Positions 9,888 through 42,683 of a stretch of 64,000 bases of DNA are shown one piece after another. Source of the stretch: an uncultured Algibacter sp. (GTDB taxonomy: Bacteria > Bacteroidota > Bacteroidia > Flavobacteriales > Flavobacteriaceae). A program made the position numbers and the translations under genes. Where the stretch lies: NCBI RefSeq assembly GCF_947487575.1, contig NZ_CANKXG010000006.1, positions 62,001 through 126,000 on the forward strand, in the 5' to 3' direction. Under the pieces are notes generated by a model. The model searched no databases. It saw only the letters and a list, made by a program, of their open reading frames with translations, and had not been told where the DNA came from. How positions within the stretch are numbered: the first letter of the stretch is position 1; each line of letters opens with the position of its first letter.

Positions 9888-12833
9888 CTACATTTTAGTT
9901 TCTGGAGGAAATGCATACGATTTTTTCCATCCTCCAAAGTCGATTAAAATTTGGTCTATCATTACGCCAGCATCTACCATCCAAATTTTTAATTTGTGTT
10001 TTCCTGCTGTATTTACAATTTGCTTTACAGATTGTACGGATGCATTTTTTAATACATTTTGTTTCCAAGCATCACTTCTTCCAAAAGTTTGAAAATCGAC
10101 TACAACAGGTTCTGCATCATCAATAGCTATGGCACAACGCACACCTGTTTTATTGTTGGGTGCATGTGTTGGAATGGCTTGTAAAAACACATCAACCTCT
10201 CCAAAATTAAACGCATAAAAATCGTATTCTAAAATAGGGCTATTTTGTTTTATATCTTCCAATTCTGTTTCAGAATTTGCTTTTCGTGGTAAAGCCACAC
10301 TTACATTTCCTGTGTAACCAACACCATTAAAAGTAGTCCATTTTGCTTCTTTCCCATCAACTTTACGAGAAAAATTTTCTGCATTTATAGAAACAAATCC
10401 TTTGTCTTCAACAAATCCTTCATAATCTTCTAACTCCTTTAATTTTGGATTAAAAACAGATACTCCAATATGAGTCGTTTTTCCTTTTGAAATAAAATCT
10501 ATTCCAGAATTTACTTTAAAACTTGGTGGAATCAGTTGATAATCGTGCCCCAAAGGTGCTTCTTTTCTGTTTTCTCCTTTCGGGACTTTATCCCAATCTA
10601 TAGCTACCCAAATACGCTCTTCTAAATGGTTTTTATTTAGTATTCCTGATGTTTTCGATACTATAATCCAATCTGCTTTAGACACTGCTTCCCATTCCAA
10701 TTCTTCTTTTCCTTTTAAAAATAAATCGATGTAATACTTGTTTTTGGTGTAAGCATTAAAAACGGGTAAAACATCGGCATAGGAATTTATAACCGCATCA
10801 TTTACTTCCATTTGATAGCTTTCTAAAGCCATACCCAAAGTACTCGTTTTTTCTTTTAGGGGGATTGTTGCCGTTGGTTCAGCAAACACAGGCAAATGCC
10901 TTGGCGCCATAGTCATAATATGCTTCCACTTTCCGTTTTGGAGCGTATTGTTAAAATAGTCCGTTTCTTTTTGAATTGCTTTAAATGCATCAAAAGATTT
11001 TGTAGCAAAGTCGCTAGCACTTTCTCTTCCTTGAGCTGCAACAAATTTATTTTTATAACTGTAAAGCCATTTAAGATTTAAATTTGATGCGCCTGTAATG
11101 GGATAATGAATTAGTTGGTAAAAGGCATCTTTTCGGTATGCTGGAATGTTTTTTTGAATTTCATTTACATCACTAATTAAATTTTGATGTGCTTGAATGC
11201 GCTTACCAACTTCATCACCATAATGATATTGTGTCAACTCCGTTTCTCCTGATTTGGTAACCGGTTCTACGCTACTCCAAGCCATAAATTCTGGTCTGCG
11301 TTGAAAGGCCAATTGGTTATATTGAAACATCAAATTGGTAATAGCCTTTGCGTTTTCTTTTCCAAATGCATTAGCACTCCAATTTAGATGGTGTTTTCTA
11401 ACTGAATCGTCATTTTTAAAAGCATCAATATTCCAAGCCATATCTAAAAATAACTCGATATTGTACTCGTGTGGTTTGATATCCCCACAATTTAAAATCC
11501 AAATGTTTTGAGACCCAAAATCATAAGCTTTCGTCATTTCCTCCCACATTAAAACAGGGTTTGTAGAATTTAACCATAGGTAATCGTGGGGTCTTCCCCA
11601 ATACGAGGTATGGTAATAAACTCCTGCCCCTCCACTTCTTTTTTGTTCATCTTCATTACTTAATTGGCGCATGTATCCGTAATTATCATCGGTCCAAACC
11701 AAGCTAATATCTTCGGGCAAGTCTAAACCACTTTGGTAATAACGTAGCACCTCTTTATAAGGCACAAATGCCTGTGGTTTTGCAACTCCTCGCTTTGTAT
11801 TGGCTTTAAGAATCTGACGTTGGTCGGCTATCACTTTTTCTAGAAGTTTTACTTGAGAATCGGTATCGTCTTCGCCAACTATCATAGGTGAATCGTGTTC
11901 TCCACGCATTCCAACGGTATAAATACCTTCAAAATTTGCCGTTTCTTTTGCTCGTTTTTTAAATAATGATTTTATGGATTCTGAATTCGTATCGTATCTA
12001 TAATCGCCCATAGTTTCATGATGCCATTCTGCGTTTATATTACACAGCATGGGTTCTGCATGCGAACTTCCAATAACTATGGCATAATTATCGGCAACTA
12101 TTTTATTTTCTGGATAATGATAAAATGCCTTTGTGCATTTATGCATTGCAGGCCAAATGGTATTAGCTCTTAAACGTAATAAAAGTTCAAACACTTTTGC
12201 ATACGTTTTGGGGCCAATATCTCCCGTTTCAGGTTCGTAATTTAATGCAGCCCAACGTTGTAAGCCCCAATCTTCATCATTTAAAAAAATGCCTCGATAT
12301 TTTACTGATGGCGCACCATAAGTCTTGTTTTTTATGTTTAAGACTAATTCTTGTTGCTTTTCTGGTGTAACATCTGCCCACCATTCCCAAGGAGATACAC
12401 CAATCTTTCGAGATATTTCTAACAGTCCGTAGGCAGTTCCTCTTCGGTCTGAACCGATAATTACTAATGCTTTTTTTATTCCTTTTGAAGGATTATTTAT
12501 AACTTGAATGTTATATGTTTCCCATTTGCCTTTAATTTGAGAAACATCAATGTTATGTTTTGTAACCAATTGATTGATGTGTTTACTTTTTCCTAATGTA
12601 CCTGCAATAATTTGATAGGATGCCTTATTTTGATGGATTGCAACTGTTTTCCCTGAAACTTTTTTTACATCGTTTGCTAAAATTTCAGAAGCAATTCTAA
12701 CCACTTCTGCGTCTTTTTCATCAATGTGTATTGAAGCTATTTCTCCATTTTTAACCAATGGGAATTGAATCGTATTTTGCCCCCATGCGGAAAGACAAAA
12801 CATTAAAAATAAGAGTTTATATAGTTTAGTCAT
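9888..12833 (-). CDS. GH115 family glycoside hydrolase (alpha-glucuronidase type)
   Basis: Resembles GH115 enzymes over its full length: KYRGIFLNDEDWGLQRWA, LRLRANTIWPAMH, GSSHAEPMLCN, VWTDDNYGYMRQ and IWILNCGDIKPHEY are family hallmarks. Characterised GH115 enzymes remove (4-O-methyl-)glucuronic acid, usually alpha-1,2-linked, from xylan side chains. I chose the start at 12833 (MTKLYKLLFLMFCLSAWG, a clear signal peptide) rather than the longer frame from 12878, because the extra 15 residues spoil the signal. The ATG overlaps the preceding stop region (ATGACTAA), implying translational coupling with the PI-PLC-type gene. In a mannoside locus the substrate may be glucuronic acid on mannose; that is inference. 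Confidence 0.92.
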   Translation of the reverse strand: MTKLYKLLFLMFCLSAWGQNTIQFPLVKNGEIASIHIDEKDAEVVRIASEILANDVKKVSGKTVAIHQNKASYQIIAGTLGKSKHINQLVTKHNIDVSQIKGKWETYNIQVINNPSKGIKKALVIIGSDRRGTAYGLLEISRKIGVSPWEWWADVTPEKQQELVLNIKNKTYGAPSVKYRGIFLNDEDWGLQRWAALNYEPETGDIGPKTYAKVFELLLRLRANTIWPAMHKCTKAFYHYPENKIVADNYAIVIGSSHAEPMLCNINAEWHHETMGDYRYDTNSESIKSLFKKRAKETANFEGIYTVGMRGEHDSPMIVGEDDTDSQVKLLEKVIADQRQILKANTKRGVAKPQAFVPYKEVLRYYQSGLDLPEDISLVWTDDNYGYMRQLSNEDEQKRSGGAGVYYHTSYWGRPHDYLWLNSTNPVLMWEEMTKAYDFGSQNIWILNCGDIKPHEYNIELFLDMAWNIDAFKNDDSVRKHHLNWSANAFGKENAKAITNLMFQYNQLAFQRRPEFMAWSSVEPVTKSGETELTQYHYGDEVGKRIQAHQNLISDVNEIQKNIPAYRKDAFYQLIHYPITGASNLNLKWLYSYKNKFVAAQGRESASDFATKSFDAFKAIQKETDYFNNTLQNGKWKHIMTMAPRHLPVFAEPTATIPLKEKTSTLGMALESYQMEVNDAVINSYADVLPVFNAYTKNKYYIDLFLKGKEELEWEAVSKADWIIVSKTSGILNKNHLEERIWVAIDWDKVPKGENRKEAPLGHDYQLIPPSFKVNSGIDFISKGKTTHIGVSVFNPKLKELEDYEGFVEDKGFVSINAENFSRKVDGKEAKWTTFNGVGYTGNVSVALPRKANSETELEDIKQNSPILEYDFYAFNFGEVDVFLQAIPTHAPNNKTGVRCAIAIDDAEPVVVDFQTFGRSDAWKQNVLKNASVQSVKQIVNTAGKHKLKIWMVDAGVMIDQILIDFGGWKKSYAFPPETKM

Positions 12834-13902: not shown

Positions 13903-15342
13903 TTAAATAGATTTTAAAAGTTTTGGTTTTTCGTTGTATAGCTTTAAAATCAACTCCCCAAATAAGGTATTCGCCCAAGCAAACCAAGACCTAGAGAATT
14001 TAGAAGCATCATCTTTATGAAAGGTTTCATGCATAAATCCTGAACCATTATGCGTATTCATCAATTGTTTGATACACCAAACAATTTCCTCATCGCTATC
14101 GCTCGTCATGGCTCTTAAAATAATGCCCATAGGCCAAATGGTATCTAAACCTGCATGTGGACCACCTTGCCCCTCGCCTGCTTTCCCTTTAAAATAATAA
14201 GGGTTATCATCACTCAACAAATACGCTCTTGTATTTTTATAGACTTCGGAATCGTAAAACGCTTCATTCATCAAATATTTCATGGCGATTAATGACGGAA
14301 TATTAGGGTCGTCTATACATACTTTATTCCCAAAACCATCTATTTCGTAGGCATATATTTTGCCATAGTGTAAATGTTCTGAAATGGCATATTTATTTAC
14401 TGCTTGTAATACTTCGCTAGAAAATGAAGCACATTCTTTAGAAAACAAATCGTCTTTAAAAACCGTTTTATAAACCTCACTTAATTGTGCTAAAGACTCT
14501 ACTGCAAACAGGTTTGATGGAATTAAAAAGGGGTACATTGTGCCGTCATCAGATGGTCTAAATGCAGAACAAATGAGTCCTGCTGGTTTTATTGGTCTGC
14601 CTTTTCCACTAAAAGGTGCTGTAACGTTTTTATTTCTTCTTACGCGTTCAAAATAATAGGGTGTTGTTCCGCTTTTGCGTTGTTCTGTTCTTAGGGTTTC
14701 TACTGCTAATCGCATGGCCTTATCCCAATCTGCATCAAAAACAGAAGTATCTCCGGTTTCTTTATAATACCCGTAAACCAAACGAACGGCATAACATAAA
14801 GAGTCTATTTCCCATTTACGTTCGTGAATACCTGACTGTGGCGTTGGTTTATCGTCTTTCCATTTTGTTGGTCTTGTAACATCTTTGTAAAATGCATTGG
14901 CATAAGGGTCTAACAGCACGCATTTGGTTTGCCTATTTATTAAGCCTTTAAATAATTTTTTTAGTTTTTTATCTTTATGAACCAAAGGTAAATATGGCCA
15001 AACTTGAGCTGTAGAATCTCGCAACCACATGGCATCAATATCGCCTGTTATAACAAATGTATCTGGTTTATCATCAATAATTTCATAATCTACTGTGGTA
15101 TCTAAAGTGTTTGGAAAACAGTTTTCAAACATCCACGCCAATTCTTTATTATTGATACCTTTTTTTACATTTTTTATAGTTTTTTCAACAGCATCACTAA
15201 CAAATGTTCTTTTAGAAGGAATAGGTCTGTTGGAAGTATACGCTTGAAAATCCTGAGCTACTCCTAAAGCAGAACAGTTTAATGCCGTAAGTCCAGCAAC
15301 ACCCAAAGCACTTTGTTTTATAAATTTTCTTCTTGTTGTCAT
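13903..15342 (-). CDS. GH125 exo-alpha-1,6-mannosidase
   Basis: 479 residues, typical GH125 (former DUF1237) length. Hallmarks: GDIDAMWLRDSTAQVWPYLPL near residues 97-117, IKPAGLICSAFRPSDDGTMYPFLIPSN, and AGLDTIWPMGIILRAMTSD near the C-terminus. The family hydrolyses non-reducing alpha-1,6-mannose by inversion. The N-terminus has a twin-arginine-like motif (RRKFIKQ) and a hydrophobic stretch ending at a Cys (LTALNC), so export is expected, perhaps by Tat. A 98-base gap separates it from the upstream GH92; the following PI-PLC-type gene starts at once. Together with GH92 it can trim both alpha-1,2/1,3 and alpha-1,6 linkages of N-glycans or fungal mannan. Confidence 0.95.
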   Translation of the reverse strand: MTTRRKFIKQSALGVAGLTALNCSALGVAQDFQAYTSNRPIPSKRTFVSDAVEKTIKNVKKGINNKELAWMFENCFPNTLDTTVDYEIIDDKPDTFVITGDIDAMWLRDSTAQVWPYLPLVHKDKKLKKLFKGLINRQTKCVLLDPYANAFYKDVTRPTKWKDDKPTPQSGIHERKWEIDSLCYAVRLVYGYYKETGDTSVFDADWDKAMRLAVETLRTEQRKSGTTPYYFERVRRNKNVTAPFSGKGRPIKPAGLICSAFRPSDDGTMYPFLIPSNLFAVESLAQLSEVYKTVFKDDLFSKECASFSSEVLQAVNKYAISEHLHYGKIYAYEIDGFGNKVCIDDPNIPSLIAMKYLMNEAFYDSEVYKNTRAYLLSDDNPYYFKGKAGEGQGGPHAGLDTIWPMGIILRAMTSDSDEEIVWCIKQLMNTHNGSGFMHETFHKDDASKFSRSWFAWANTLFGELILKLYNEKPKLLKSI

Positions 15343-15440
15343 TTATTTAAGAATTAGCATCTGAAAATGGTACGAATAAAATAAGGATTAGTGCCTCTAA
15401 GAAAATAGATATCATCCTAATACACTAAAGATAATACACT

Positions 15441-17747
15441 TTAATTATCTCTGGCTTCCATTTCCATGTTAAGCACACCACCACTTGTTATGTCTTTATG
15501 AAACAAGGTAAATTCTTTTAATGACTTACCATTAAAGGTCGCTTCTTTTACAAAAACGTTGGCTTCATTATTATCAGTAGCTAGAATTTCTAAGGTTTTT
15601 CCTGAATGATAATCGGGATGCAATTGAATGGAAATTTTATCGAAAATAGGGCTTCCAATTTGATATTCTGCATCTGCATCTGTTCCGCCATTTATTTGGA
15701 ATAAACCAATTTTCATTAACACAGCAAGACTTCCCATTAAACCTTGGTCTTCGTCTCCATTATAACCTGTTGATGGTGCTAAACCTCCAAAAACGGTAGA
15801 TGTTACTTTTCGAGACCAATACTGTGTTAAGTCTGGTCTGCCCAGTTTATGAAAAGCAAAAGCTGTTTGTATAGAGGGTTGATTACCATAGTTTATTGGA
15901 ATCTTTCTGTATTCTGGATGTAATTCTGATGCATGTGATGTACCAGAGGTAAAGTTTAAAGTCTCTGCTTCTTCAAATTGAGTCTTCAATTTATCGGCAG
16001 CCACATCTTTTCCTCCCATTAATTCTCCTAATTCTGGAATATTATGAGGTACAAACCATGTGGATTGTGCCCCATTGGCTTCTATAAAACCTTCCTCGTA
16101 ATTGTAAGGACTATAGTCAGCTTGCCATTGTCCCTTTATATTTTTGGGTTGCATCCACCCTATTTTTTTATTGAATAGGTTCTGATAGTTTTTAGAACGC
16201 TTCATAAAATAATCGTAATCTGCTTTCTTTCCTAACTTTAATGCCAATTGGGCTAACGTCCAATCTTGATACGCATATTCTAAAGTTAAACCTGCACCAT
16301 CTTGATGCCCTCCAAATTTACCTTCTGGATTTGGATGTGGCACAAAACCATTTTTTAAATAATATTTAAGACCACCTCCTTTTTGTGTTTTATGCTCATA
16401 GCCCGCCTTTTCCATAATACCATTTGGCATATGGTTTTTCTTTAAAGCTTCGTATACATATTCTAAATTATTTTTAAGAATACCTTTTTGAATGGCACTC
16501 ACAAAAAATGGTGTGGAAGAACTTCCCGTCATAACATAAGTATAATTCCCTCCTGATGGCCCTCTAGCAACTAAACCTCCATCTTTATAATATTGCAGTA
16601 AAGACCATGTAAACTCTTCATAAATTTCTGGATATACTAAGCCCCATAAAGTATTTATTGTCCATTGCGCGCCCCAAAAAGCATCTGAGTTATAATGATT
16701 AAACTTAGGCGTACCATCTTCTTTTAAAGGCAATTGCCCTATTCTAAAGCTTTTTCCTGTATTATCTGGATATGCACCATTTACATCACTTATGGTTCGT
16801 CTTCCTTGAAGCGCATGCCACAAGTCTGTATAAAATCTCTTTTGTTGCTTTTCAGTATTCCCTTCAACTTTTATTCTTCCTAAAAGACTATTCCATTCGG
16901 TTTTTGAGTCTGAAACTACAGCATTAAAATCCCAATGTGGTAATTCTGTTTTCATATTCAAACTGGCATTTTCTTCTGACGTATATGAAATAGCAACTTT
17001 CATTAAAAGCGGCGTATTCAAATCCTTAAAATGTAACATGTAATTCCCTGTTTCTTCATCTTTTTGAAGATGATTTACAGACTGATTTAAAGCTATTTTA
17101 AAAAATACTTTTAAATCTTTTGGTCTCCTATGCGTTGGCGTAGCTACTACAGAGCCAACAAATTCTTTATCGTTAATTTGTTTTAATATGCCATTTGCAT
17201 TATCGCTAGGTCCTAAAACGGTATTTAAATTTAATAGGATTCCTGCTTCAGATTTTTCAGGAAATGTATATTTATGAAAACCGACACGTTTGGTGCTTGT
17301 TAATTCTGTTTTAATATTAAAACGTTGAAGTTCTAAGCTATGATAACCTGGTTTTACCACTTCATTATCATGACTAAATTTTGAATAGAAATCGGTAAAA
17401 ATGCTATTTTTATTTTCTTCGGAAAAGGTAACTGGCATTACAGAAACACCAGATATTTGCCAACCATGAATATGGCTAAATCCTTTTATTGTATCTGTTT
17501 TATAACGATAACCACTACCCCAAGCTCCATCTATTTGATTATCTGGACTTAAATTTACCATTCCAAAAGGACGACATGCCGACGAAAAGAAAAACCATCT
17601 AGAATTTTCTGTATCTAGTTGAGGATAGACCATATTTGAAAAATCGACCTCTTTATAAACCTCATCTGTGATTATTTGTTTACTATCATTTTTACAAGCA
17701 AAAACTGATAATAGTATAAATAATATAAAAAATTTACAATATCTCAT
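15441..17747 (-). CDS. GH92 alpha-mannosidase, divergent subgroup
   Basis: 768 residues with a lipoprotein signal (LLSVFAC). Recognised as GH92 from VYPQLDTENSRWFFFSSACRP through SDAFWGAQWTINTLW and the C-terminal barrel. The region that usually reads EGNxWQYxWFVPHD reads EANGAQSTWFVPHN, keeping the Glu that aligns with the catalytic acid. The usual GNEDxGQMSxWYVF reads GDEDQGLMGSLAVL, so the carboxylates stay but the Ser/Trp/Tyr after them are lost. This marks a distinct subgroup whose linkage specificity may differ from exo-alpha-1,2-mannosidases. The stop is 5 bases after the GH28 stop-side neighbour, in the susC-susD operon. Confidence 0.92.
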   Translation of the reverse strand: MRYCKFFILFILLSVFACKNDSKQIITDEVYKEVDFSNMVYPQLDTENSRWFFFSSACRPFGMVNLSPDNQIDGAWGSGYRYKTDTIKGFSHIHGWQISGVSVMPVTFSEENKNSIFTDFYSKFSHDNEVVKPGYHSLELQRFNIKTELTSTKRVGFHKYTFPEKSEAGILLNLNTVLGPSDNANGILKQINDKEFVGSVVATPTHRRPKDLKVFFKIALNQSVNHLQKDEETGNYMLHFKDLNTPLLMKVAISYTSEENASLNMKTELPHWDFNAVVSDSKTEWNSLLGRIKVEGNTEKQQKRFYTDLWHALQGRRTISDVNGAYPDNTGKSFRIGQLPLKEDGTPKFNHYNSDAFWGAQWTINTLWGLVYPEIYEEFTWSLLQYYKDGGLVARGPSGGNYTYVMTGSSSTPFFVSAIQKGILKNNLEYVYEALKKNHMPNGIMEKAGYEHKTQKGGGLKYYLKNGFVPHPNPEGKFGGHQDGAGLTLEYAYQDWTLAQLALKLGKKADYDYFMKRSKNYQNLFNKKIGWMQPKNIKGQWQADYSPYNYEEGFIEANGAQSTWFVPHNIPELGELMGGKDVAADKLKTQFEEAETLNFTSGTSHASELHPEYRKIPINYGNQPSIQTAFAFHKLGRPDLTQYWSRKVTSTVFGGLAPSTGYNGDEDQGLMGSLAVLMKIGLFQINGGTDADAEYQIGSPIFDKISIQLHPDYHSGKTLEILATDNNEANVFVKEATFNGKSLKEFTLFHKDITSGGVLNMEMEARDN

Positions 17748-17752
17748 TGGGC

Positions 17753-19381: not shown

Positions 19382-19383
19382 GT

Positions 19384-21459: not shown

Positions 21460-21483
21460 AAAAAAAAAAAATCAAATTATAAA

Positions 21484-21508
21484 GGCAGACAAAAAACATT
21501 CATCTGCC
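21484..21508 (-). terminator. Hairpin between susD and hydrolase genes
   Basis: GGCAGA (21484-21489) pairs with TCTGCC (21503-21508); on the minus strand it is followed by TTTATAATTTGATTTTTTTTTT-like T-rich DNA. It could be an intrinsic terminator or attenuator reducing read-through from susCD into the GH92 gene. Confidence 0.5.
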
Positions 21509-21575
21509 CTTATAAAAACTAAACTAACTCAAAATAATTACTACTCAAAAATTAAAGTTTTGATGTGAAACCACT

Positions 21576-21600
21576 CTCTTTTCTCTCTCTAAGAAAAGAG
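21576..21600 (-). other. Second hairpin after susD
   Basis: CTCTTTTCT (21576-21584) pairs with AGAAAAGAG (21592-21600), a 9-base-pair stem with a 7-base loop, directly after the susD stop at 21615. There is no T-run right behind it, so mRNA 3'-end stabilisation is likelier than termination. Confidence 0.45.
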
Positions 21601-21614
21601 AATGAATTACGCAT

Positions 21615-23276: not shown

Positions 23277-23295
23277 TTTCTTTACAATTTTAAAT

Positions 23296-26200
23296 TTATA
23301 ATGATACATTTAATCCAAACAGTACTGTTTTTGTGAGATAAGCAGCACTGTACGAGTTTTGTAATCCAGTTTCAGGATCTGGACCTTCATAATCAGTAAA
23401 AATGAATGGGTTTTGTATATCAATAGATAACCTCATAGCATCTAATTTCAACTTATCTAACACATTAGAAGGTATGGTATAAGTTAAACCTATATTACCA
23501 ATTTTCACAAAATCAAACTCCTCATAATAATACTCTCCAGGATGTGCATAAGACAATGCAGGCCTTTTTGCATCAGGATTATTAGGTGTCCAATAATCTA
23601 AGTCAATTTTATTGAATTTAGCTTGGTCATTTTGATAAGGGGCAAAATTTTGATAAAATTCTGAATGCCCTACCGAACCTTGGCGTGTATTAATTTGTAT
23701 TCTTGCTTCAAAGTTTTTATAACTAAACGTATTAGTCATACCAGCAATCCAGTCTGGGTTAACAGAACCAATTACAACCTTATCATCATTATTAATAACG
23801 TCATCACCATTTTGATCTACAAATTTATATTGACCAGGGCGAGCTCCAAAAACAGCAGCTTCAGCATACTCATCTAATTGCCAAATACCTTCATTTTCAA
23901 AAGAAAAAATAGCTGTAGGGTCTTCTCCCACTTTCAAAACACCATGACGACCCAGAACTATTTCTTCTACATCCCCATCAAGCCTTAAAATTTCTGATGT
24001 ATTTCTTGAAAAATTAAAATTAGTACGCCATCTAAAATTATTCGTTTGGATATTTGTAGTATTCAAAGCTACCTCAAAACCTCTGTTTCTTAATTTACCA
24101 AAATTACCAGTAGCATTTGCAAAACCAGATATACTTACTAAGTCTCTTTGAAAGATAGCTCCTTCTATCTCTTTATTATAATAATCCAAAGTCAAATTAA
24201 CTCTATTGCTAAAAAGCCCTAAATCTAAACCAATGTTAGTTTCTGTAGAAACTTCCCATGTTAATTCGTCATTTGACAAACCATTTACGAATTTACTATT
24301 CACAAACTCATCTCCAAACAAATAAGTATCACTTTCCAAAAAAGATTGAGATTGGTAAGGACTTACTGTATCTATATTTCCTGTTTGACCATAACTTAAA
24401 CGTAATTTCATATTATTAAGCCAGTTAATGTCTTGCATAAAGTTTTCTTCAGTTACTTTCCAAGCTAATGCCGCTGATGGAAAGAAATCCCATTTATTAT
24501 TAACTGCTAATCTAGATGCCCCATCATAACGTCCTGTTAAAGTTAACAAATACTTATCTTTATAAGAATAGTTTAACCTAGCGGCAAAAGAAGCTATATT
24601 TTCTTTTATGAAATTACTACTGTACGTACGTACATCTGTTCCATCTCCTGTATTAAAAAACAAAAATTCATCTGCACTTAAATTACGGGTCTGAATATTA
24701 CCTCCTTCAAATTCTTTATGAAAAAGAGATGTTATAATAGTTGCGCCTAAATCATTATTTTCATCTAAATCAAAGTTTATATTTGCTATATTATCCCAAG
24801 TATAAGTAACTATAGATGATGAATTATAAATCGCTCTAGTTCTACTTGGATCATTTCTTGCAGCTTTAGTTAGCAATCCTCTGTATTCTCCAAATCTATC
24901 ATAAACTAGACTAGGTGAAAATTGTGTTTTCAAGTTTAACCATTTTAATGGTTTATATTCTAAAAAGGCATTAGCAATAATATCAAAACGTTTTGTATTA
25001 ACACGCCATGCGCCATCTTGTTCATAAATTGGATTTATAAAACGTTGATCTTGCTCATCTGGTAATAAATCTAAACTTCCATTTTCCTCAAATGGATTTA
25101 CAGTTGGAGCTAAACGAAATGAACTTCTAAATAGCTCGCGACTCCCTTCTTCTCTTTCAGAAAATGCTAGATAAGTTTTTACTCCAAAAGTTAATTTATC
25201 ATTAACTTTTTTCGATAAAGAACCTGATAAATTATACCTTTCAAAACTTTCAATCCCAACAACTCCTTCATCTTTTAAATACCCTACAGATGCATTATAT
25301 AGAAGACCATCATTTCCACCAGAAGCCGAAACAGTATGACTGGTTTGAACTCCTGTTTCTTGAAACTTACCAATCCAATCCGTGTAACTTCTGTTTGCAA
25401 CATTACTCTGTTCTTCAGCCCCTATATATTCAACCGAAGTATCTAAAACAATGCTATTGTAATCAGCTACAGTTGCAGGACCTGCATTTAGTAAGTTACC
25501 AAATTCTCTGGCTCTTACTACATCATCAACAAAAGACACATACTCATCTCCATTATAAAAATCAGGTGAATTTACAACACTACGTATACCAAATGTGGCA
25601 TCATAATTAAATCGTGTCCTTCCTTCTATTCCACTTTTTGTTGTTATAATTACAACCCCATTAACACCTCTTGCTCCATAAATAGCAGTTGAAGATGCAT
25701 CTTTTAAAACATCAATTTGCTTAATATCAGCTGGATTCAAAGCATTAATATTATCAACAAAAATACCATCAACTACATACAATGGCTGTCCTAAATCCGC
25801 AAATGGACTATCATTAACTCCATCATTCCCCTGATTATTATTTCTCAGAACACTATTACCTCTAATATTTATCGATAGAGGAGCACCTGGCTTATTATTA
25901 AGCGTTCTAACATCTACACCGGCTAAACGCCCTTGTAATGCTTGTGCTACATCTGTTTTGCGTTGTTCAATAATATTGTCACTTCCAATAGATCCTACTG
26001 CTCCTGTTAAATCTTTTCGTTTAACACTTCCATACCCAATCACTACTACCTCATCAAGTTGAGCAGTGTCTTCAGAAAGCTGAATGTTCAAAGGAGATTG
26101 TCCAGTATAAGTAACCTCAAAAGTTTGGAAACCTAGGTAGGAAAACACTATAACGTCTCCATTATTTGCTTTGATTTGATAATTACCATCAAAATCTGTA

Positions 26201-26352
26201 GCAGCACCAATCGATGTGTTTTTAACAAGGATATTAACCCCTGGGATAGGTACACTCTGTTCATCAGTAACAACACCAGACACATTATCTTGTGCGAAAA
26301 CCGATAAAGCACCTATAAAAAAGGCAATCAATAATAGTTTTAGTTTTTTCAT
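23296..26352 (-). CDS. SusC/RagA-type TonB-dependent outer-membrane transporter
   Basis: 1018 residues: signal peptide 1-20, carboxypeptidase-regulatory-like domain 22-95 (VSGVVTDEQSVPIPGVNILVKN), TonB-box region and plug (LDEVVVIGYGSVKRKDLTGAVG, then YVVDGIFVDN, VLKDASSTAIYGARGVNGVV), and the beta-barrel ending in FGLNVSL. The plug motifs are diagnostic for SusC proteins. It imports oligosaccharides with the SusD partner 19 bases downstream. It opens the gene run to the hybrid regulator. A possible TAnnTTTG box (26373-26380) and the shared 13-base element (26430-26442) lie upstream. Confidence 0.97.
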   Translation of the reverse strand: MKKLKLLLIAFFIGALSVFAQDNVSGVVTDEQSVPIPGVNILVKNTSIGAATDFDGNYQIKANNGDVIVFSYLGFQTFEVTYTGQSPLNIQLSEDTAQLDEVVVIGYGSVKRKDLTGAVGSIGSDNIIEQRKTDVAQALQGRLAGVDVRTLNNKPGAPLSINIRGNSVLRNNNQGNDGVNDSPFADLGQPLYVVDGIFVDNINALNPADIKQIDVLKDASSTAIYGARGVNGVVIITTKSGIEGRTRFNYDATFGIRSVVNSPDFYNGDEYVSFVDDVVRAREFGNLLNAGPATVADYNSIVLDTSVEYIGAEEQSNVANRSYTDWIGKFQETGVQTSHTVSASGGNDGLLYNASVGYLKDEGVVGIESFERYNLSGSLSKKVNDKLTFGVKTYLAFSEREEGSRELFRSSFRLAPTVNPFEENGSLDLLPDEQDQRFINPIYEQDGAWRVNTKRFDIIANAFLEYKPLKWLNLKTQFSPSLVYDRFGEYRGLLTKAARNDPSRTRAIYNSSSIVTYTWDNIANINFDLDENNDLGATIITSLFHKEFEGGNIQTRNLSADEFLFFNTGDGTDVRTYSSNFIKENIASFAARLNYSYKDKYLLTLTGRYDGASRLAVNNKWDFFPSAALAWKVTEENFMQDINWLNNMKLRLSYGQTGNIDTVSPYQSQSFLESDTYLFGDEFVNSKFVNGLSNDELTWEVSTETNIGLDLGLFSNRVNLTLDYYNKEIEGAIFQRDLVSISGFANATGNFGKLRNRGFEVALNTTNIQTNNFRWRTNFNFSRNTSEILRLDGDVEEIVLGRHGVLKVGEDPTAIFSFENEGIWQLDEYAEAAVFGARPGQYKFVDQNGDDVINNDDKVVIGSVNPDWIAGMTNTFSYKNFEARIQINTRQGSVGHSEFYQNFAPYQNDQAKFNKIDLDYWTPNNPDAKRPALSYAHPGEYYYEEFDFVKIGNIGLTYTIPSNVLDKLKLDAMRLSIDIQNPFIFTDYEGPDPETGLQNSYSAAYLTKTVLFGLNVSL

Positions 26353-26680
26353 TTTAATAAATTTAGATTAGTCAAAATTATTTTGGTTAAAATTAAGTTA
26401 AGGCTTAAGACTTGATATGGAATTTTATATCAAAAACATGGAAATATCATTTAAAACAGATTAAATTATTAAGGTTTATCTCACATAAAAATACGTTAAA
26501 GTTTCAACTATTATTTAAGTTAACACATTCTATACATTTCTTAAATAGAAAAAATAAGGAGTATTAATGATTAAATAATCCATATAAATAAACTATTAAT
26601 CCATCTTATCAAATATTGTTGTAATTAAATTTGTTTTAGAATGAGAAATTAGGGAATAAAACTTAAAATAAGTTAGTAGT
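26353..26680. other. Divergent promoter region, susC / inositol oxygenase
   Basis: 328 bases without a gene, very AT-rich. It must hold promoters in both directions. Minus strand: TAATTTTG at 26373-26380 fits the Bacteroidota -7 consensus TAnnTTTG for susC. Plus strand: TAAATTTG at 26626-26633 fits it for the inositol oxygenase gene. I found no TTG -33 element at the right spacing for either. The motif at 26430-26442 is listed separately. Confidence 0.5.
26430..26442. promoter_or_regulatory. Shared promoter element upstream of susC
   Basis: TCAAAAACATGGA, identical to 3977-3989 before the permease gene, in the same orientation and at nearly the same distance (78-90 bases) from the start codon. 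Candidate HTCS binding site about 50 bases upstream of the possible -7 box. Confidence 0.5.
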
Positions 26681-27550
26681 ATGAAAAAATCATCCATAAA
26701 TCAACCTCTAGAAAATATAGAACATTGGGAAGAAGATTTAATTAAACGTTACCCAGACCCAGATACTAATGGTAAAGAAAAGGAAGACTTTAGAAACTAC
26801 GAAGATTCGGATAGAGCTGAAACCGTGAGGGAGTTCTATAGACTTAACCATACGTTTCAAACCTACGATTTTGTTTCAAAAAAAGAAGCTGGTTTTTTAG
26901 AGTTTAATAGAAAAGAAATGTCTATTTGGGAAGCTGTTGATTTCTTAAACACCCTTGTTGATGATAGCGATCCTGATATTGACTTAGATCAACTACAACA
27001 TTTATTACAAACGTCTGAAGCTATAAGAGCTGACGGACATCCAGACTGGTTTGTCTTAACTGGATTTTTACATGATGTTGGCAAAGTGCTTTGCTTATTT
27101 GGAGAACCTCAATGGGCTGTAGTTGGAGATACTTTTCCTGTAGGTTGTAAATTCTCTGACAAAATTGTACATGCCAATTATTTTGCTGACAATCCTGATT
27201 CAACAAACCCAAAATACAATACAAAATATGGTATCTATTCACCAAATTGTGGGTTAGATAATGTTAAAATGAGTTGGGGACATGATGAGTACCTATATCA
27301 AATCATGAAAGATTATTTACCGGAACCAGCATTATATATTATTAGATATCATTCTTTCTATGCACAACATCGAGAAAACGAATATAGCCACTTGATGAAT
27401 GAAAAAGATGTTGAAATGTTTGAATGGGTAAAGAAATTCAATCCTTACGATTTATATACAAAAGCACCTGTTAAACCAGATGTTAAATCTCTAAAACCTT
27501 ATTACCAAGAACTTGTTAAAAAATACCTACCCGACACGCTAAAATTTTAA
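26681..27550 (+). CDS. myo-Inositol oxygenase (MIOX)
   Basis: 289 residues, the size of animal and plant MIOX, which convert myo-inositol plus O2 to D-glucuronate with a mixed-valent di-iron centre. All six iron ligands of the mouse enzyme have counterparts: H107 ([11 protein letters not shown]), H131-D132 (GFLHDVGK), H201 ([10 protein letters not shown]), H224 (IIRYHSFY), D257 (NPYDLYTK). [16 protein letters not shown] and [18 protein letters not shown] are also characteristic. It is cytoplasmic (no signal). The following symporter gene starts 33 bases later, making an inositol uptake and oxidation pair plausible. Its product would enter the hexuronate route represented by uxaB/uxaA nearby. 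Confidence 0.96.
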
Positions 27551-27583
27551 GAACTAAGAAACTAACTAACCAGCCAAACAATA

Positions 27584-29161
27584 ATGTTTTATACCTATTT
27601 AGGATTTTTTGGATTTACCTTATTCGTAATACTTTATACAACATATAAACTCCGAAAAGATAAATTCACAACTTCAAAAGGTTATTTTTTAGCTGGAAAA
27701 AGTTTAACAGGCCCAATCATCGCAGGGTCTATGATACTTACCAACATTTCTACGGAACACTTAATAGGAATGAATGGAAGTTCCTATAAAAACGGTATTA
27801 TTATAATAGCTTGGGAGGTTACTTCTGCTATTGCTTTAGTTATAGCTGCCATTTATTTTATTCCGAAGTTTATAAAATTGGGGATAACTACCATCCCCGA
27901 ATTTCTAGAAAGGCGTTTTGATGGTGTAATACGCTCTGTTGTGGCCTTTTTGCTAATGTCATCATTTATTATAACGCTTTTACCAATTGTTTTATATTCT
28001 GGAGCTATTAATATTGAAAGTGTTTTTGATTTTTCTGCAATATTCAATGTATCAAAAAGTGAATCGCTTATTTATACTGTTTTAGCCATAGGTATTATTG
28101 GTTCTATGTATGCCATTTTTGGCGGTTTAAAAGCTGTAGCATACTCAGATTCTTTAAACGGTATTGGCTTAATGCTAGGAGGACTTCTTATACCCACAAT
28201 TGCCTTATATCAAATTGGTAATGGTAATATGTTTGATGGCTTAAGCACAGTGTACCATTTTGCACCAGATAAATTTGATATTATTGGTAAGCCAGATTCG
28301 GTGCTTCCTTTTTCTGTTTTGTTTACCGGGTTAATGATTAATCAGTTGTATTTCTGGGGAATGAACCAGGCTATTATTCAGCGAGCATTTGGAGCTAAAA
28401 ATTTAGTCGAAGCTCAAAAAGGACTTATTTACACTGGTGTATTGAAGCTCTTTGTTCCTGCCATAATCGTTTTACCAGGTCTAATTGCTTATTACTATTT
28501 TCAAGACACCTATTATGCAACACCAGATTTGATATATCCTATGTTGGTAAAAAAGGTATTACCTTCTTATCTTTTTGGTTTTTTTGCTGCTGTTATTCTG
28601 GGCGCTGTTTTAAGCACATTTAATAGTGTACTAAACTCAGCAAGCACCATTTTTTGTTTAGATATTTACAAAAAGATTTTTAATAAAAATGCTTCTGATG
28701 CTAAATTGGTGAAATACGGCAAAATATCATCTGTTATTCTAGCCTTAATAGCTATTGCTGTAGCACCAATGGTTGCTTATGCCCCTGATGGTTTGTACCA
28801 GTTATTACAAGAACTAAACGGCATTTTCTTTATTCCTATTTCTTCTATTATAATTGCTGGAATATTCTTTAAACAAATAAATACTAAGGGCGCAAAAGCA
28901 GGACTTTTCTTTGGATTTACATTTTACATTCTAACCACTTTTATACTTAAAGTAAATATCCATTTTGTGCATTTGTGGGGTATTGAATTTCTTCTAAATT
29001 TTGCAATCATGTTTTTAGTTTCAAAAATGTATCCTTCAGAAATTAAAACGGATTATTATAGTATGAAACAAGAAGTTGTAGAAAAGTCTTGGCCTAAGGT
29101 TAAACTTTACGGCAGTATACTTGTTGCTTTAACTGTGCTCATCTATATTTTGCTATCGTAG
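27584..29161 (+). CDS. Sodium:solute symporter (SSS family), possibly for inositol
   Basis: 525 residues with about 13-14 membrane helices. SSS hallmarks: the SMILTNISTEHLIGMNGSSY region, IYFIPKFIKLGITTIPEFLERRF, GGLKAVAYSDSLNG, and AVILGAVLSTFNSVLNSASTIF. This family includes sodium-coupled transporters of glucose, galactose and myo-inositol. It follows the inositol oxygenase gene at 33 bases and is co-transcribed with it in all likelihood, which suggests inositol as substrate; a uronate is the alternative. No terminator hairpin is visible in the 35 bases before the convergent uxaA. Confidence 0.9.
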   Translation: MFYTYLGFFGFTLFVILYTTYKLRKDKFTTSKGYFLAGKSLTGPIIAGSMILTNISTEHLIGMNGSSYKNGIIIIAWEVTSAIALVIAAIYFIPKFIKLGITTIPEFLERRFDGVIRSVVAFLLMSSFIITLLPIVLYSGAINIESVFDFSAIFNVSKSESLIYTVLAIGIIGSMYAIFGGLKAVAYSDSLNGIGLMLGGLLIPTIALYQIGNGNMFDGLSTVYHFAPDKFDIIGKPDSVLPFSVLFTGLMINQLYFWGMNQAIIQRAFGAKNLVEAQKGLIYTGVLKLFVPAIIVLPGLIAYYYFQDTYYATPDLIYPMLVKKVLPSYLFGFFAAVILGAVLSTFNSVLNSASTIFCLDIYKKIFNKNASDAKLVKYGKISSVILALIAIAVAPMVAYAPDGLYQLLQELNGIFFIPISSIIIAGIFFKQINTKGAKAGLFFGFTFYILTTFILKVNIHFVHLWGIEFLLNFAIMFLVSKMYPSEIKTDYYSMKQEVVEKSWPKVKLYGSILVALTVLIYILLS

Positions 29162-29196
29162 GTAAAAGAATGATATAATAGCTTTAAAAAATCAAC

Positions 29197-30807
29197 TTAT
29201 AAAGAAACCCCTCGCCTCCAAGGAATAAAGTCGTTTTGATTCAATATTTTGGCTTTGGTTTGTATTTCTCCGCTTGCTACTTTAATGATAAATTCTAGCA
29301 TTTCATCTGCCATTTCCTCTATTGTTTTTTCACCACGAATAACACCACCCGTTTCAATATCAATAATATCTGGCATTCTATTGGCCAAATCTGTATTAGA
29401 AGACACTTTAATTACCGGAGCTATTGGGTTTCCTGTTGGTGTTCCTAAACCTGTTGTAAATAAAACAAGATTGGCACCTGCACCAACTATAGCTGTTGTA
29501 CTTTCTACATCATTACCGGGAGTACACAATAAATTGAGTCCAGATTTACCAACATACTCTCCATAATCTAAAACATCTTGTATTGGAGACGTTCCTCCCT
29601 TTTTGGCAGCTCCTGCAGATTTCATGGCATCTGTAATTAAACCATCTTTTATATTTCCGGGAGACGGATTCATATCAAAACCAGAACCTGATTCTACTAC
29701 AGATTTCTCGTAAGCTTTCATTAGTTTTAAAAACTTTTCGCCTTTTTCATCATCTATACATCTATTAACCAACTCCTGCTCTACCCCACACAACTCCGGG
29801 AATTCGGCCAAAATAGCGGTACCATGCAACGCAGTTAAAATGTCTGAAACAGCTCCTAAAGTAGGATTTGCAGATATTCCCGAAAATCCGTCCGAGCCTC
29901 CACATTCTAAACCCACTTTAAGTTTAGATAAAGAAGCTGGTTTCCGTACTATATTATTTGCCTTTTTTATGGCTTCGAAAGATTCTTTTATAATCGTAGA
30001 CAACATATTGTCCACTGTTCCCATCTGTTGCTGTTCGTATATTAAAACTGGCTTATTTAGATTAGGATTTATACTTTTTAAAGCGTCTTTAAATATATCT
30101 ATTTGAAGATTTTGACACCCTAAACTTAACACAGTGGCACCAGCAACATTTGGATTGTTAACATAACCTGCCAATAATTTTGCTAAACTTTCTGAATCTT
30201 GACGAATGCCTCCACAACCACCAGGATGCGTTATAAATTTAACATCAATATTATCAAAAACTTTTGTAGTATTTTCAGTTATCTCTGTTGATGATTCTTC
30301 TCCTCTTACTAAAGCTCTTAACATGAGTTGATGAGTGCTTACTTGCTGATGTAAAAGCTCTTTTTCAAAAATATCTTTTAAAATTTCAACATTTCTATTT
30401 TCGCAAAATACTAGCGGGAAAAATAACCAAACATTTTCTGTACCTACTTGACCATCTGCTCTATGATAACCTAAAAAAGTCCTTTCTTTCCATTTATCAA
30501 CATTAGGGGCTTTCCAAGTAAATTGAGCTGTTCTACCAAATACCTTTTCGGTTTCATGTTTTACATTCTTCGTCGTTAATACATCTCCTTTGTTAATCAC
30601 GCCATTAGCTTTTCCCACTAGAACACCATACATAATAATACTATCGCCCAAGTTAAAATGCTCTAAGGCAATTTTATGTTTAGACTTTGTATTTGATATA
30701 ATTTTAATATCCTCTTCTTCAAAGGAAATAATCTCTCCTGCTTTTAAATTTACCAGAGTAACTGCAACATTGTCTGAGGTGTTTATTTTTATAAGCTTTT
30801 TTAACAT
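29197..30807 (-). CDS. uxaA: Altronate dehydratase
   Basis: 536 residues. N-terminal SAF domain (about 1-80: KINTSDNVAVTLVNLKAGE) followed by the UxaA dehydratase core (TFLGYHRADGQVGTENVW, THPGGCGG, LGCQNLQ, GLECGGSDGFSGISANP, LCTPGNDVESTTAIVGAGA). The full-length enzyme converts D-altronate to 2-keto-3-deoxygluconate, using iron. It follows uxaB by 30 bases, so the two steps are encoded together. The isomerase (uxaC) and KDG kinase/aldolase are not in this window. Confidence 0.95.
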   Translation of the reverse strand: MLKKLIKINTSDNVAVTLVNLKAGEIISFEEEDIKIISNTKSKHKIALEHFNLGDSIIMYGVLVGKANGVINKGDVLTTKNVKHETEKVFGRTAQFTWKAPNVDKWKERTFLGYHRADGQVGTENVWLFFPLVFCENRNVEILKDIFEKELLHQQVSTHQLMLRALVRGEESSTEITENTTKVFDNIDVKFITHPGGCGGIRQDSESLAKLLAGYVNNPNVAGATVLSLGCQNLQIDIFKDALKSINPNLNKPVLIYEQQQMGTVDNMLSTIIKESFEAIKKANNIVRKPASLSKLKVGLECGGSDGFSGISANPTLGAVSDILTALHGTAILAEFPELCGVEQELVNRCIDDEKGEKFLKLMKAYEKSVVESGSGFDMNPSPGNIKDGLITDAMKSAGAAKKGGTSPIQDVLDYGEYVGKSGLNLLCTPGNDVESTTAIVGAGANLVLFTTGLGTPTGNPIAPVIKVSSNTDLANRMPDIIDIETGGVIRGEKTIEEMADEMLEFIIKVASGEIQTKAKILNQNDFIPWRRGVSL

Positions 30808-30837
30808 CTTGTAAACTGTAATTCGTGTTGTTTAAAT

Positions 30838-32298
30838 TTAAAACTGTTGACTATAATTCGCAAAGCCTTTTTCAATACCATTGGTCTCTATTTCTTTTAA
30901 TGCAAACGCAATGGCTTCTGTTAAATTTTCAACATGCGTTAAATCTTCCCCCCAATAATCTTCAATACTTAAAACACTTTCGGCCACCAGAAAATAATCA
31001 TTAGATTTCCATATTTCAGAAAATTTTAAAACAATAGCCTCACTATCTTGAACAGGTAAAGTATTCCCTTGCCACATTCCTTTATAAAAACGTATTAAGC
31101 AAGCAAAAGCAAAGGTTAAGTTTGTTGGTACTTTATTGTGAATATTTACATATTCTAATAAACTAGGTAGTACTCTTACTTTAAATTTTGATATTGAATT
31201 TAAAGCAATACTCGATAAATTATGACTAATAAAAGGATTTCTAAAACGGTCAAAAACTTCATCAGCAAAACTATTCAATTCACTTTTATCCATATCTAAT
31301 GTATCTATAATTTCATTAAATACAGCGGTATTGATAAACGCACCAGTAAATGAATTATCTACAGATTGTTTTACTGTTTTGTTCCCATAAAGCAAAGAAA
31401 AAGGCACCATTGCGGTGTGTGCACCATTTAATATACGAACCTTTCTGGTACGGTAAGGTTGCATATCATTTACAATCTTAACATCTAATTTTGTTTTATC
31501 AAATGGTAGTTTCTCTTTTAATGTATTTCCGCCTTCTATAACCCATAATAAAAAAACTTCTGCGGCTACGATTAAATTATCTTTATAATCTAGCTTAGCG
31601 TTATATAGTTCTATTTCATCTTTTGGATAACCGGGTACAATTCTATCTACCAAAGTATTATGAAATGTATTACTTTCTAATAACCATGTTTTAAAACCGT
31701 TTTCCAACTTCCAATCGGAAACATATTTTAAAATGATTTCTTTTAATGTTTTGGCATTGTAATTAATAAGTTCGCAAGGAATAATGGTTACCCCTTTATT
31801 AGTAGCACCTTTAAAATGTTTAAATCTTTCGTACAATAGAACCGTTAGTTTTGCCGGAAATGAACTTGGTGGTTTCATGTTTGGAGAATCAGTACTTACA
31901 TAAGCAATACCTGCCTCGGTTGTGTTAGAAATGATAAATTCTAACGATTCTTCTTTTGCTAAACTTAAATACTCTTCAAAATTAAGATACGGGTTAACAC
32001 CTTTTACAATATTTTCTATGAGTTCAACCTCTTGAATTTCTTCTCCTTTCTTAACCCCTTTCATGAAAAGCGTGTATAAACCATCTTGGTTATTTAGCAT
32101 TTCTACCAAACCCTTATCAATTGGCTGAACTACAGCTATTCCTCCATTAAAAGTTGCCTTTTTGTTTAACTCCTGAAAAGCATATCCAACAAAAGCCCTT
32201 AAAAAATTACCTTCTCCAAATTGTATGATTTTTACAGGTGGATGTTCCGTTAATCCTATATTTTTTCTATGTAGTAGAGGTTTGTTGGTTTTTGTCAT
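30838..32298 (-). CDS. uxaB: Tagaturonate reductase (altronate oxidoreductase)
   Basis: 486 residues of the mannitol dehydrogenase/UxaB family. IIQFGEGNFLRAF near residue 24 is the nucleotide-binding motif and is characteristic of UxaB; ISNTTEAGIAY, IIPCELINYN, LVDRIVPGYP, RKVRILNGAHTAMVP and DRFRNPFISHNLSSIALNS match the E. coli UxaB pattern closely. It reduces D-tagaturonate to D-altronate with NADH. A fructuronate-reductase role (UxuB) is less likely on these motifs. It follows a GH92 gene by 55 bases and precedes uxaA by 30, linking mannosidases and hexuronate breakdown in one probable operon. Confidence 0.93.
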   Translation of the reverse strand: MTKTNKPLLHRKNIGLTEHPPVKIIQFGEGNFLRAFVGYAFQELNKKATFNGGIAVVQPIDKGLVEMLNNQDGLYTLFMKGVKKGEEIQEVELIENIVKGVNPYLNFEEYLSLAKEESLEFIISNTTEAGIAYVSTDSPNMKPPSSFPAKLTVLLYERFKHFKGATNKGVTIIPCELINYNAKTLKEIILKYVSDWKLENGFKTWLLESNTFHNTLVDRIVPGYPKDEIELYNAKLDYKDNLIVAAEVFLLWVIEGGNTLKEKLPFDKTKLDVKIVNDMQPYRTRKVRILNGAHTAMVPFSLLYGNKTVKQSVDNSFTGAFINTAVFNEIIDTLDMDKSELNSFADEVFDRFRNPFISHNLSSIALNSISKFKVRVLPSLLEYVNIHNKVPTNLTFAFACLIRFYKGMWQGNTLPVQDSEAIVLKFSEIWKSNDYFLVAESVLSIEDYWGEDLTHVENLTEAIAFALKEIETNGIEKGFANYSQQF

Positions 32299-42665: not shown

Positions 42666-42683
42666 AAATTAATACATTAAAAA

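Follow-up and report, generated by a model that had tools for sequence, protein, structure and literature searches.

Among the described systems closest to the gene cluster examined here, at positions 4040–29161 of a 64,000-nucleotide stretch from an uncultured Algibacter sp. (the window; contig C6, 62001–126000, of a 3.5-Mb genome), is the phosphate utilization system (PUS) PUSI of Flavobacterium johnsoniae (Fjoh_4168–4173). In the available part of its description, PUSI encodes a single PF16670 and a single PF00149 protein, its induction follows phosphate depletion, and it is co-localized with phosphodiesterases, in contrast to loci with carbohydrate-active enzymes (PMC8115612). As in PUSI, the window has a SusCD-type pair together with a PF16670 phosphatidylinositol-specific phospholipase C (PI-PLC) and a PF00149 phosphoesterase; in F. 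johnsoniae CI04 (L227), a PI-PLC 50% identical to that of the window lies beside a phosphoesterase of 49% identity. Unlike PUSI, the window locus contains five glycosidases including GH115, a hybrid two-component system (HTCS) regulator, and a myo-inositol oxygenase (MIOX) with a symporter; with its two GH92, GH125, GH28, and GH115 genes, it falls outside the PUS type, in which SusCD and phosphoesterases occur without carbohydrate-active enzymes. The predicted GH115 α-glucuronidase shares its domain and six key active-site residues with BtGH115A (5by3) and the xylan GH115 enzyme BoAgu115A (4c90), and differs from them in its PI-PLC/MIOX context. A phospholipase C from Botrytis, BCIN07g04350, releases the inositol phosphate glycan from plant glycosyl inositol phosphoryl ceramide (GIPC) and is annotated as a sphingomyelinase, according to the excerpted text (PMC11496612). 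This secreted fungal enzyme is not named there as a PF16670 protein, and it lacks the glycan-uptake and inositol genes of the window. Finally, adjacent HGSNAT-like and GH89 genes in Flavobacterium relatives of the locus resemble lysosomal HGSNAT and NAGLU, which we take to act on heparan sulfate. Unlike the lysosomal pair, the Flavobacterium genes are grouped with GH115 and PI-PLC. The window contains no counterpart of either gene of the pair, and a search of its genome that matched in 2 of 14 controls found no GH89.

We propose that the cluster is a utilization locus for GIPC, or for a close algal equivalent with α-linked glucuronic acid (GlcA) on inositol, with a probability of roughly 0.6. 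At the family level, enzymes for the outer sugars, the α-GlcA, the lipid phosphodiester, the phosphate, and the inositol are all present. GIPCs, the main sphingolipids of plants, are termed the major sphingolipids on earth in the part of one article available (PMC6151786), and their head structures are described as largely unknown in the excerpts at hand. No bacterial route for the sugar heads of GIPC was present among the literature matches listed, in a search that had preprints and most subscription journals outside its scope. We regard the cluster as a SusCD locus adapted to the head group of a glycolipid, which would be a new type of meal for gene clusters of this kind; if the proposal is right, the locus offers a candidate pathway for the use of GIPC heads and a candidate GlcA–inositol activity for a subgroup of GH115, PF16670 PI-PLCs can serve carbon rather than phosphate acquisition, and the enzymes could help to sequence GIPC heads.

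Gene organization and enzymes of the locus

The operon at 4040–26352 runs on the minus strand in the order SusC, SusD, GH92, GH28, GH92, GH125, PI-PLC, GH115, phosphoesterase, and HTCS regulator, with short intergenic gaps and overlapping PI-PLC and GH115 frames. Adjacent susC and susD genes, same-strand glycosidases, and a local HTCS sensor-regulator characterize it as a SusCD-type polysaccharide utilization locus (PUL). MIOX and the sodium:solute symporter (SSS) are transcribed divergently from the operon across a 328-bp gap beside susC, and UxaA and UxaB follow the symporter in convergent orientation. Genome-wide searches found MIOX and PF16670 in a single copy each. The Pfam scan covered 30 of the 31 window open reading frames (ORFs; ≥120 aa), and the remaining ORF was scanned with NCBIfam.

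In the window PI-PLC, the SHNSY motif, E79, D81, and H125 are invariant across 45 sequences. The AlphaFold2 model (pLDDT 92.6) gave as top Foldseek matches the Ca-dependent bacterial PI-PLCs 5fyr, 5fyo, 5fyp, and 3h4w, followed by a PLC-δ, with TM-scores of ~0.5 over the query. The domain score above cut-off, the PI-PLC fold, and the kept motifs thus place the protein in the PF16670 PI-PLC class, with catalytic roles of SHN, ELD, and His that we assume from PLC-δ1. Judged by eye from its N-terminus, it is probably a lipoprotein. Genome G207 encodes the PI-PLC as a fusion with a BD-FAE-type esterase domain, and frames of similar length are present in G323 and G335.

The true start of the GH115 gene is probably an internal ATG near 12833, and the protein appears by eye to have a signal peptide. 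In alignments read off by hand, its D201, R325, D329, E376, Y421, and H423 correspond to D206, R328, D332, E375, Y420, and H422 of BoAgu115A; these six key residues, also common to BtGH115A, are invariant across 13 sequences. At three further positions, those of W249, D424, and V426 in BoAgu115A, the window enzyme has the residues of BtGH115A, its best PDB relative: His, Ser, and Trp. The domain and the catalytic and GlcA-binding residues place the enzyme in GH115.

The phosphoesterase has a complete set of metal-site motifs (DVH, GDF, GNHD, and GHMH). Its AlphaFold2 model (pLDDT 88.3) is nearest in fold to Lmo2642 (TM-score 0.46 over the query), followed by acid-sphingomyelinase-like phosphodiesterases (TM-scores ~0.33–0.36); sequence searches of the PDB returned noise with the single sequence and one weak match with a profile. 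We propose that it may be a phosphatase or cyclic phosphodiesterase for released inositol phosphate. MIOX was aligned to the inositol oxygenase 2huo over residues 25–288 of 289 (E = 8.8e-91), with a full-length domain and a conserved active-site region; the identities of the metal ligands are presumed. No export signal was seen by eye at its N-terminus. By the same inspection, the phosphoesterase, the operon GH92 proteins, and GH28 appear to be lipoproteins, and GH125 appears to be of the twin-arginine type. An earlier note, made from the DNA letters alone, had named several of these enzyme families and described a complete MIOX with an SSS transporter; all of its family assignments were borne out by the Pfam and NCBIfam scans.

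A motif scan of the GH28 protein found neither GHG nor RIK, and its NCBIfam matches are all below cut-off. Because these motifs, whose meaning in GH28 we take as given, are absent, it is probably no polygalacturonase. UxaB scores 653 bits as a tagaturonate reductase (cut-off 359) versus 106 bits as a fructuronate reductase (cut-off 603), and the sole NCBIfam match of the UxaA-like protein, to galactarate dehydratase, is below cut-off. A continuation of the MIOX reaction by UxaA/UxaB was therefore rejected: UxaB belongs to the galacturonate branch, not to that of the glucuronate made by MIOX. Together with GH28, UxaB/UxaA thus suggest a galacturonic acid component. The UxaC gene and a full-length UxuA gene are outside the window, on contig C3; in addition, a UxuA family match split into two fragments, each listed with an open frame of 358 aa, lies at C6:51797–52618, ~9.4 kb before the window start. 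The operon glycosidases belong to families of mainly exo-acting kinds, and the Pfam scan of the operon found no endo-mannanase family, features that favour a short head group over a polysaccharide.

Conservation of the gene set

We searched 397 genomes of the family Flavobacteriaceae for MIOX, PF16670, and GH115, as the earlier note had suggested for the gene set, and tallied the distances between hits. MIOX hits were divided into high- (>360 bits) and lower-scoring (313–327 bits) sets, which are bit-score groups and not clades of a tree, and hits below 300 bits were dropped; only strong hits were used, that is, 30 of the 33 listed PI-PLC loci and 75 of the 82 GH115 loci (7 at ≤249 bits were dropped). 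A high-scoring MIOX gene lies within 25 kb of 16 of the 30 strong PI-PLC loci, window included, where ~1.2% would be expected at a random position, and GH115 is near 12 of the 30. Conversely, 20 of 31 high-scoring MIOX loci are near PI-PLC or GH115; for lower-scoring MIOX, the counts are 1 of 33 near PI-PLC and 0 of 33 near GH115. The single lower-scoring case is G006:C3:86117–86866 (L126), an apparently decaying copy with two TGA stops. Counted by genome, PI-PLC is present in 28 of the 397 and high-scoring MIOX in 31, and the two occur together in 20 (Fisher p ~9e-20, with kinship ignored). The grouping of these genes is far above chance. In a phylum-wide search, strong PF16670 hits were found in 20 of 296 genomes.

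Fifteen relatives with a linked PI-PLC–MIOX pair were compared with the window. Their gene content refers to the fetched stretches, which reach ~1.5–24 kb to the right past the outer of PI-PLC and symporter and 10–20 kb to the left. In these relatives and in the further loci described below, genes were identified from their top BLAST hits among the window proteins and a few added ones, so that a lack of glycosidases means a lack of these. The relatives keep the symporter (15), some GH92 (15), the phosphoesterase (14), the regulator (14), the first GH92 (13), and GH115 (11); less often kept are GH28 (7), UxaA (5), UxaB (5), GH125 (4), and GH115B (7), a GH115-like paralogue of 683–687 aa (PF15979, 52.6 bits for L103:4130–6187 in G207). 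In the profile alignment of GH115B, the Asp201- and His423-type positions align, whereas the Arg325, Asp329, and Glu376 motifs do not; by this pattern, GH115B may represent a distinct subfamily with another specificity. The conserved unit is 4040–29161.

The genome contigs were also scanned with the PI-PLC alignment, and the best 80 of 585 relatives were kept. The 26 closest loci (L151–L176), a set whose cut was placed where gene content changes and which is therefore not independent of it, span Algibacter, Seonamhaeicola, Maribacter, Cellulophaga, Aureibaculum, Croceivirga, Mariniflexile, Wenyingzhuangia, Ancylomarina, and Muricauda, with several Flavobacterium and one Prolixibacteraceae metagenome-assembled genome (MAG); L168, L169, and L171 are among those ending at contig ends. 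These 26 loci contain GH115 in 21 cases, GH115 or GH115B in 25, GH92 in 24, phosphoesterase in 25, and HTCS in 25, the one exception for GH115 or GH115B being the contig-end locus L168. The corresponding counts in the other 54 loci are GH115 0, GH115B 1, GH92 3, phosphoesterase 21, and HTCS 0. Within the bounds of the 21-kb locus, MIOX is found for 11 of the closest set versus 1 of the 54. For a genome-wide check, 50 of the 80 loci were taken and 49 genomes searched (L163 was left out): high-scoring MIOX is present in 24 of 25 genomes of the closest set versus 6 of 24 of the remaining set, which also includes 13 genomes with a lower-scoring MIOX and 5 without any. No MIOX was found in the genome of L174, the Prolixibacteraceae MAG, yet PI-PLC, GH115, GH125, GH92, and phosphoesterase are together there; as MIOX requires oxygen, its loss in an anaerobic lineage would fit.

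In a quick tree of 81 PI-PLC sequences with SH-aLRT support only, the window and the 26 closest loci form one clade of 27 rows (98% SH-aLRT), here called the glycan clade, a glycan label being given to loci with GH115, GH115B, or the first GH92 (GH92a). In the loci of its sister clade (32 rows), all three are missing, and a SusCD pair with a phosphoesterase is often present. This glycosidase-free layout resembles PUSI; most simply, a carbohydrate locus would have taken in a pair of genes that once scavenged phosphate. A Flammeovirgaceae MAG (L206) has GH115B and GH92 outside the glycan clade, a possible second origin of this type of locus.

Proposed pathway and substrate

From the genes, families, motifs, layout, conservation, and clade described above, we infer the substrate, the order of reactions, their cell location, the import, and the regulation. 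Judged by its enzyme families, the substrate must hold α-mannose, an α-linked uronic acid accessible to GH115, an inositol phosphodiester, and inositol. In the available parts of two articles, GIPC is composed of sugars–(Man or GlcN(Ac))–GlcA-α1,2-inositol-P-ceramide, where Man is mannose and GlcN(Ac) is glucosamine or its N-acetylated form (GlcNAc); Man-GlcA-inositol phosphoryl ceramide (IPC) predominates in Arabidopsis leaves, and the best described core is GlcNAc-α1,4-GlcA-α1,2-inositol (PMC6151786, PMC9113257). Free Man-α1,4-GlcA-α1,2-inositol is known from rose cells, by the titles of works cited in another article (PMC11496612).

In the pathway that we propose, SusD and SusC would bind and import the glycan or glycolipid head, the exo-acting GH92 and GH125 enzymes (and GH28) would remove outer sugars, and GH115 would cut the α-1,2-linked GlcA off inositol. 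PI-PLC, which would need the freed inositol 2-hydroxyl, would then split inositol phosphate from the lipid, by that stage plain IPC, and the metallophosphoesterase would take off the phosphate. The SSS symporter would import the inositol, which MIOX would convert to D-glucuronate; together with the GlcA released by GH115, this product would enter the UxaC/UxuA catabolism encoded elsewhere in the genome. PI-PLCs of the classical mechanism act through the inositol 2-hydroxyl. Since the 2-position of inositol carries GlcA in plant GIPC, the glycosidases and GH115 should precede PI-PLC. Such an order is consistent with the overlap of the PI-PLC and GH115 genes and with an origin of the PI-PLC among phosphodiester scavengers.

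If GIPC is the substrate, enzymes acting on GlcN(Ac) and arabinose would be expected in part of the loci. The locus of Flavobacterium glycines, presumably from soybean, contains GH92-type genes, GH28, two GH43, GH89 (α-N-acetylglucosaminidase), an HGSNAT-like membrane protein (E = 7.6e-19 to human HGSNAT, heparan-α-glucosaminide N-acetyltransferase), PI-PLC, GH115, a GH29-family protein, phosphoesterase, regulator, and one 597-aa protein without a Pfam match; on the other side of SusC are MIOX, the symporter, and a NagB/PIG-L protein. This two-domain protein (L235:1824–3752) adjoins the inositol symporter; in F. pokkalii and F. daejeonense, this position is occupied by an untyped ORF of 642 aa. 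The loci of F. pokkalii, which we take to be from rice, and F. daejeonense also carry GH89 and the HGSNAT homologue, and all five GH89 loci among the best 80 of 585 have this pair together with GH115. The same combination is found in G115 and G228, there with a GH2 β-galactosidase-type protein; the GH89-like protein of G164 is only 36% identical, and G115 and G164 have no nearby PI-PLC. In the lysosomal logic, the acetyltransferase would turn terminal GlcN into GlcNAc, which GH89 would cut; by this analogy, the Flavobacterium pair is what tobacco or rice GIPC would need. GH29 occurs in 11 of the 26 closest loci, mostly in genera that we presume to be marine; the host of the window is probably marine as well. 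We lean slightly toward the fuller version of the proposal, in which the outer enzymes are also swapped according to the GIPC series of the source, with GH89/HGSNAT-like in Flavobacterium and GH29/GH115B in seaweed-type genera. Without GH89 in its genome, the window organism would be limited to GIPC heads of the mannose type, not of the GlcN(Ac) type.

Several observations weigh against GIPC as the substrate. GlcA on O-2 should block a classical PI-PLC, and GH115, which appears to be periplasmic, would have to reach a lipid-bound head. BtGH115A, its nearest characterized relative, reportedly acts on arabinogalactan. Canonical GH115 is absent in 4 of the 15 relatives, one of which (G369) also lacks GH115B; 11 of the 31 high-scoring MIOX loci are near neither PI-PLC nor GH115; G153, G308, G164, and G115 have MIOX and GH115 with PI-PLC not near; and G317 has MIOX, phosphoesterase, regulator, and GH92 with neither PI-PLC nor GH115 near. 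The parts of the locus are therefore separable. GH28 and UxaA/UxaB, left unexplained by GIPC, suggest a galacturonic acid part not described for plant GIPC in the available portions of the sources. Among the typed genes of the F. glycines locus there is no galactosidase, and a ceramidase search gave no match, as it gave none in any control. On the side of the compounds, GlcA-IPC is termed plant-specific in the accessible text of one review (PMC9113257), and no GIPC head-group structure from a marine alga was found in the literature searched; a survey of GIPC heads ran from algae to monocots, according to passages from two texts apparently on one survey, and inositol phosphoceramide is reported in red algae.

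Alternative substrates

In the marine lineage, the substrate could be a novel glycolipid or phosphoglycan of algae that contains inositol phosphate and a uronic acid other than GlcA, such as galacturonic acid, and the Flavobacterium loci would then be the plant GIPC version of the system. The GH28 and UxaA/UxaB genes near the window operon, GH29 in 11 of the 26 closest loci, and the red algal inositol phosphoceramide would suit such a compound; the core enzymes of the window locus, however, are identical in kind to those of the Flavobacterium loci, no such algal glycolipid was found among the literature matches listed, and we regard this reading as rather unlikely. The locus might also merge two functions, a PUL for a mannan bearing GlcA or galacturonic acid (glucuronomannan or gum-type) and an unrelated scavenging pair for phosphate and inositol. 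GH115, GH28, GH92, GH125, and UxaA/UxaB suit a uronic-acid mannan, PI-PLC and phosphoesterase stand alone in PUSI and similar loci, and the four genomes named above have MIOX and GH115 away from PI-PLC. We nevertheless consider this merger unlikely: the combination is kept in many genera, its PI-PLCs are one clade, the PI-PLC gene is embedded in the operon, flanked by GH125 and by GH115, which it overlaps, no endo-mannanase family is in the operon, and the PI-PLC–esterase fusion of G207 is also out of keeping with it. Neither PI-PLC nor MIOX is accounted for by glucuronomannan, and the recurrence of their linkage speaks against coincidence.

For a mannosylated inositol phospholipid free of GlcA, such as fungal mannosyl inositol phosphoryl ceramide (MIPC) or phosphatidylinositol mannosides, GH92/GH125, PI-PLC, and MIOX would suffice, and the 4 relatives of 15 without canonical GH115 would be accommodated; with GH115 or GH115B in 25 of the 26 closest loci, and with no place on a mannosyl inositol for the GH89, HGSNAT-like, GH43, and NagB proteins of the Flavobacterium loci, such a lipid is very unlikely. 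The glycosylphosphatidylinositol (GPI) anchors of glycoproteins, on which the earlier note had built its joint pathway, are a quite unlikely substrate. The mannosidases would trim the glycan, PI-PLC would cut the anchor, and MIOX would use the inositol, and the inositol 2-hydroxyl, which we take to be free in GPI, suits a classical PI-PLC. A trypanosome GPI-PLC leaves a 1,2-cyclic phosphate, in the portion of the article available (PMC10051276). GPI as the main substrate was rejected, as the GlcN–inositol step is missing by family and GH115 is unexplained: GPI has GlcN and no GlcA on inositol, so that GH115, which itself or as its paralogue GH115B is kept in nearly all of the closest loci, would be idle. 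No family known to cut GlcN–inositol was found among the window ORFs, where a novel enzyme is possible, GH89 gave no match in the genome, and GH89 with an HGSNAT-like protein is found only in other loci, always with GH115. What stands of the joint pathway, through conservation across genera, is a glycan joined via inositol phosphate to a lipid. PNGase F, which the earlier note had enlisted for whole GPI-anchored glycoproteins, lies beyond the interval 9888–32298 that it covered. In whole-genome searches with distances read by hand, one relative of the 15 (G152) has PNGase F less than 35 kb from PI-PLC, four have it farther away, namely G339 (~50 kb) and G374 (~89 kb) on the same contig, G335 (~1.8 Mb), and G203 (another contig), and it was not found in the other 10. 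The GH38 genes that the earlier note had joined to GH92, GH125, PI-PLC, and phosphoesterase in one locus lie outside that interval as well and do not belong to the conserved unit: close GH38 homologues were found in 1 of the 15 relatives' stretches, and homologues of GH92c/d (>60% identity) in 3. Treatment of the whole 9888–47480 as one system was rejected on these counts.

Coordinates and neighbouring genes

Beyond UxaB lie a pair of GH92 genes, a CoA-transferase gene, and a pair of GH38 genes, followed by PNGase F and another SusCD cluster. The coordinates are given in Table 1, which also includes a permease of the major facilitator superfamily (MFS).

Table 1. Genes of the proposed glycolipid locus and its surroundings in the window (relatives: the 15 genomes with a linked PI-PLC–MIOX pair)
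Feature	Position	Strand	Evidence and remarks
FucP-type MFS sugar permease, possible accessory	2585..3895	-	TIGR00885 512 bits, cut-off 280; 7/15 relatives
HTCS regulator, last operon gene	4040..8071	-	Reg_prop, Y_Y_Y, HisKA, HATPase_c, Response_reg, HTH_18; >45% identity homologue in 14/15 relatives
Calcineurin-type metallophosphoesterase	8087..9880	-	PF00149; 14/15 relatives; just outside the start of the interval of the earlier note
GH115 α-glucuronidase	9888..12878	-	PF15979 435 bits; >50% identity in 11/15 relatives
Ca-dependent-type PI-PLC (PI-PLC-C1)	12826..13902	-	PF16670 428 bits
GH125 exo-α-mannosidase	13903..15342	-	PF06824 527 bits; 4/15 relatives
GH92 α-mannosidase (first GH92), most widely kept glycosidase	15441..17747	-	PF07971; >55% identity in 13/15 relatives
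GH28-fold enzyme	17753..19381	-	PF00295; 7/15 relatives
GH92 α-mannosidase	19384..21459	-	PF07971
SusD-like glycan-binding lipoprotein	21615..23309	-	PF07980, PF14322
SusC-like TonB-dependent transporter, first operon gene	23296..26352	-	CarbopepD_reg_2, Plug
MIOX	26681..27550	+	PF05153 372 bits
SSS symporter, proposed inositol importer	27584..29161	+	PF00474; NF007790 above cut-off; >60% identity in 15/15 relatives
Altronate/galactarate dehydratase family (UxaA-like), accessory	29197..30807	-	PF20629/PF04295; 5/15 relatives
Tagaturonate reductase (UxaB), accessory, galacturonate branch	30838..32298	-	NF002969 653 bits, cut-off 359; 5/15 relatives
Two GH92 genes (GH92c/d)	32354-37415		Neighbouring material outside the conserved unit
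Class III CoA-transferase, between GH92 and GH38 genes	37444-38646		In 2/15 relatives' stretches
Two GH38 genes	39033-46292		Neighbouring material outside the conserved unit
PNGase F	46395-47480		Neighbouring material outside the conserved unit

The region at 46395–63725 contains PNGase F, a LytTR/histidine kinase pair, a LamG protein, SusCD, two GH92, DUF418, and mannose-6-phosphate isomerase, and looks like a separate N-glycan or mannan locus.

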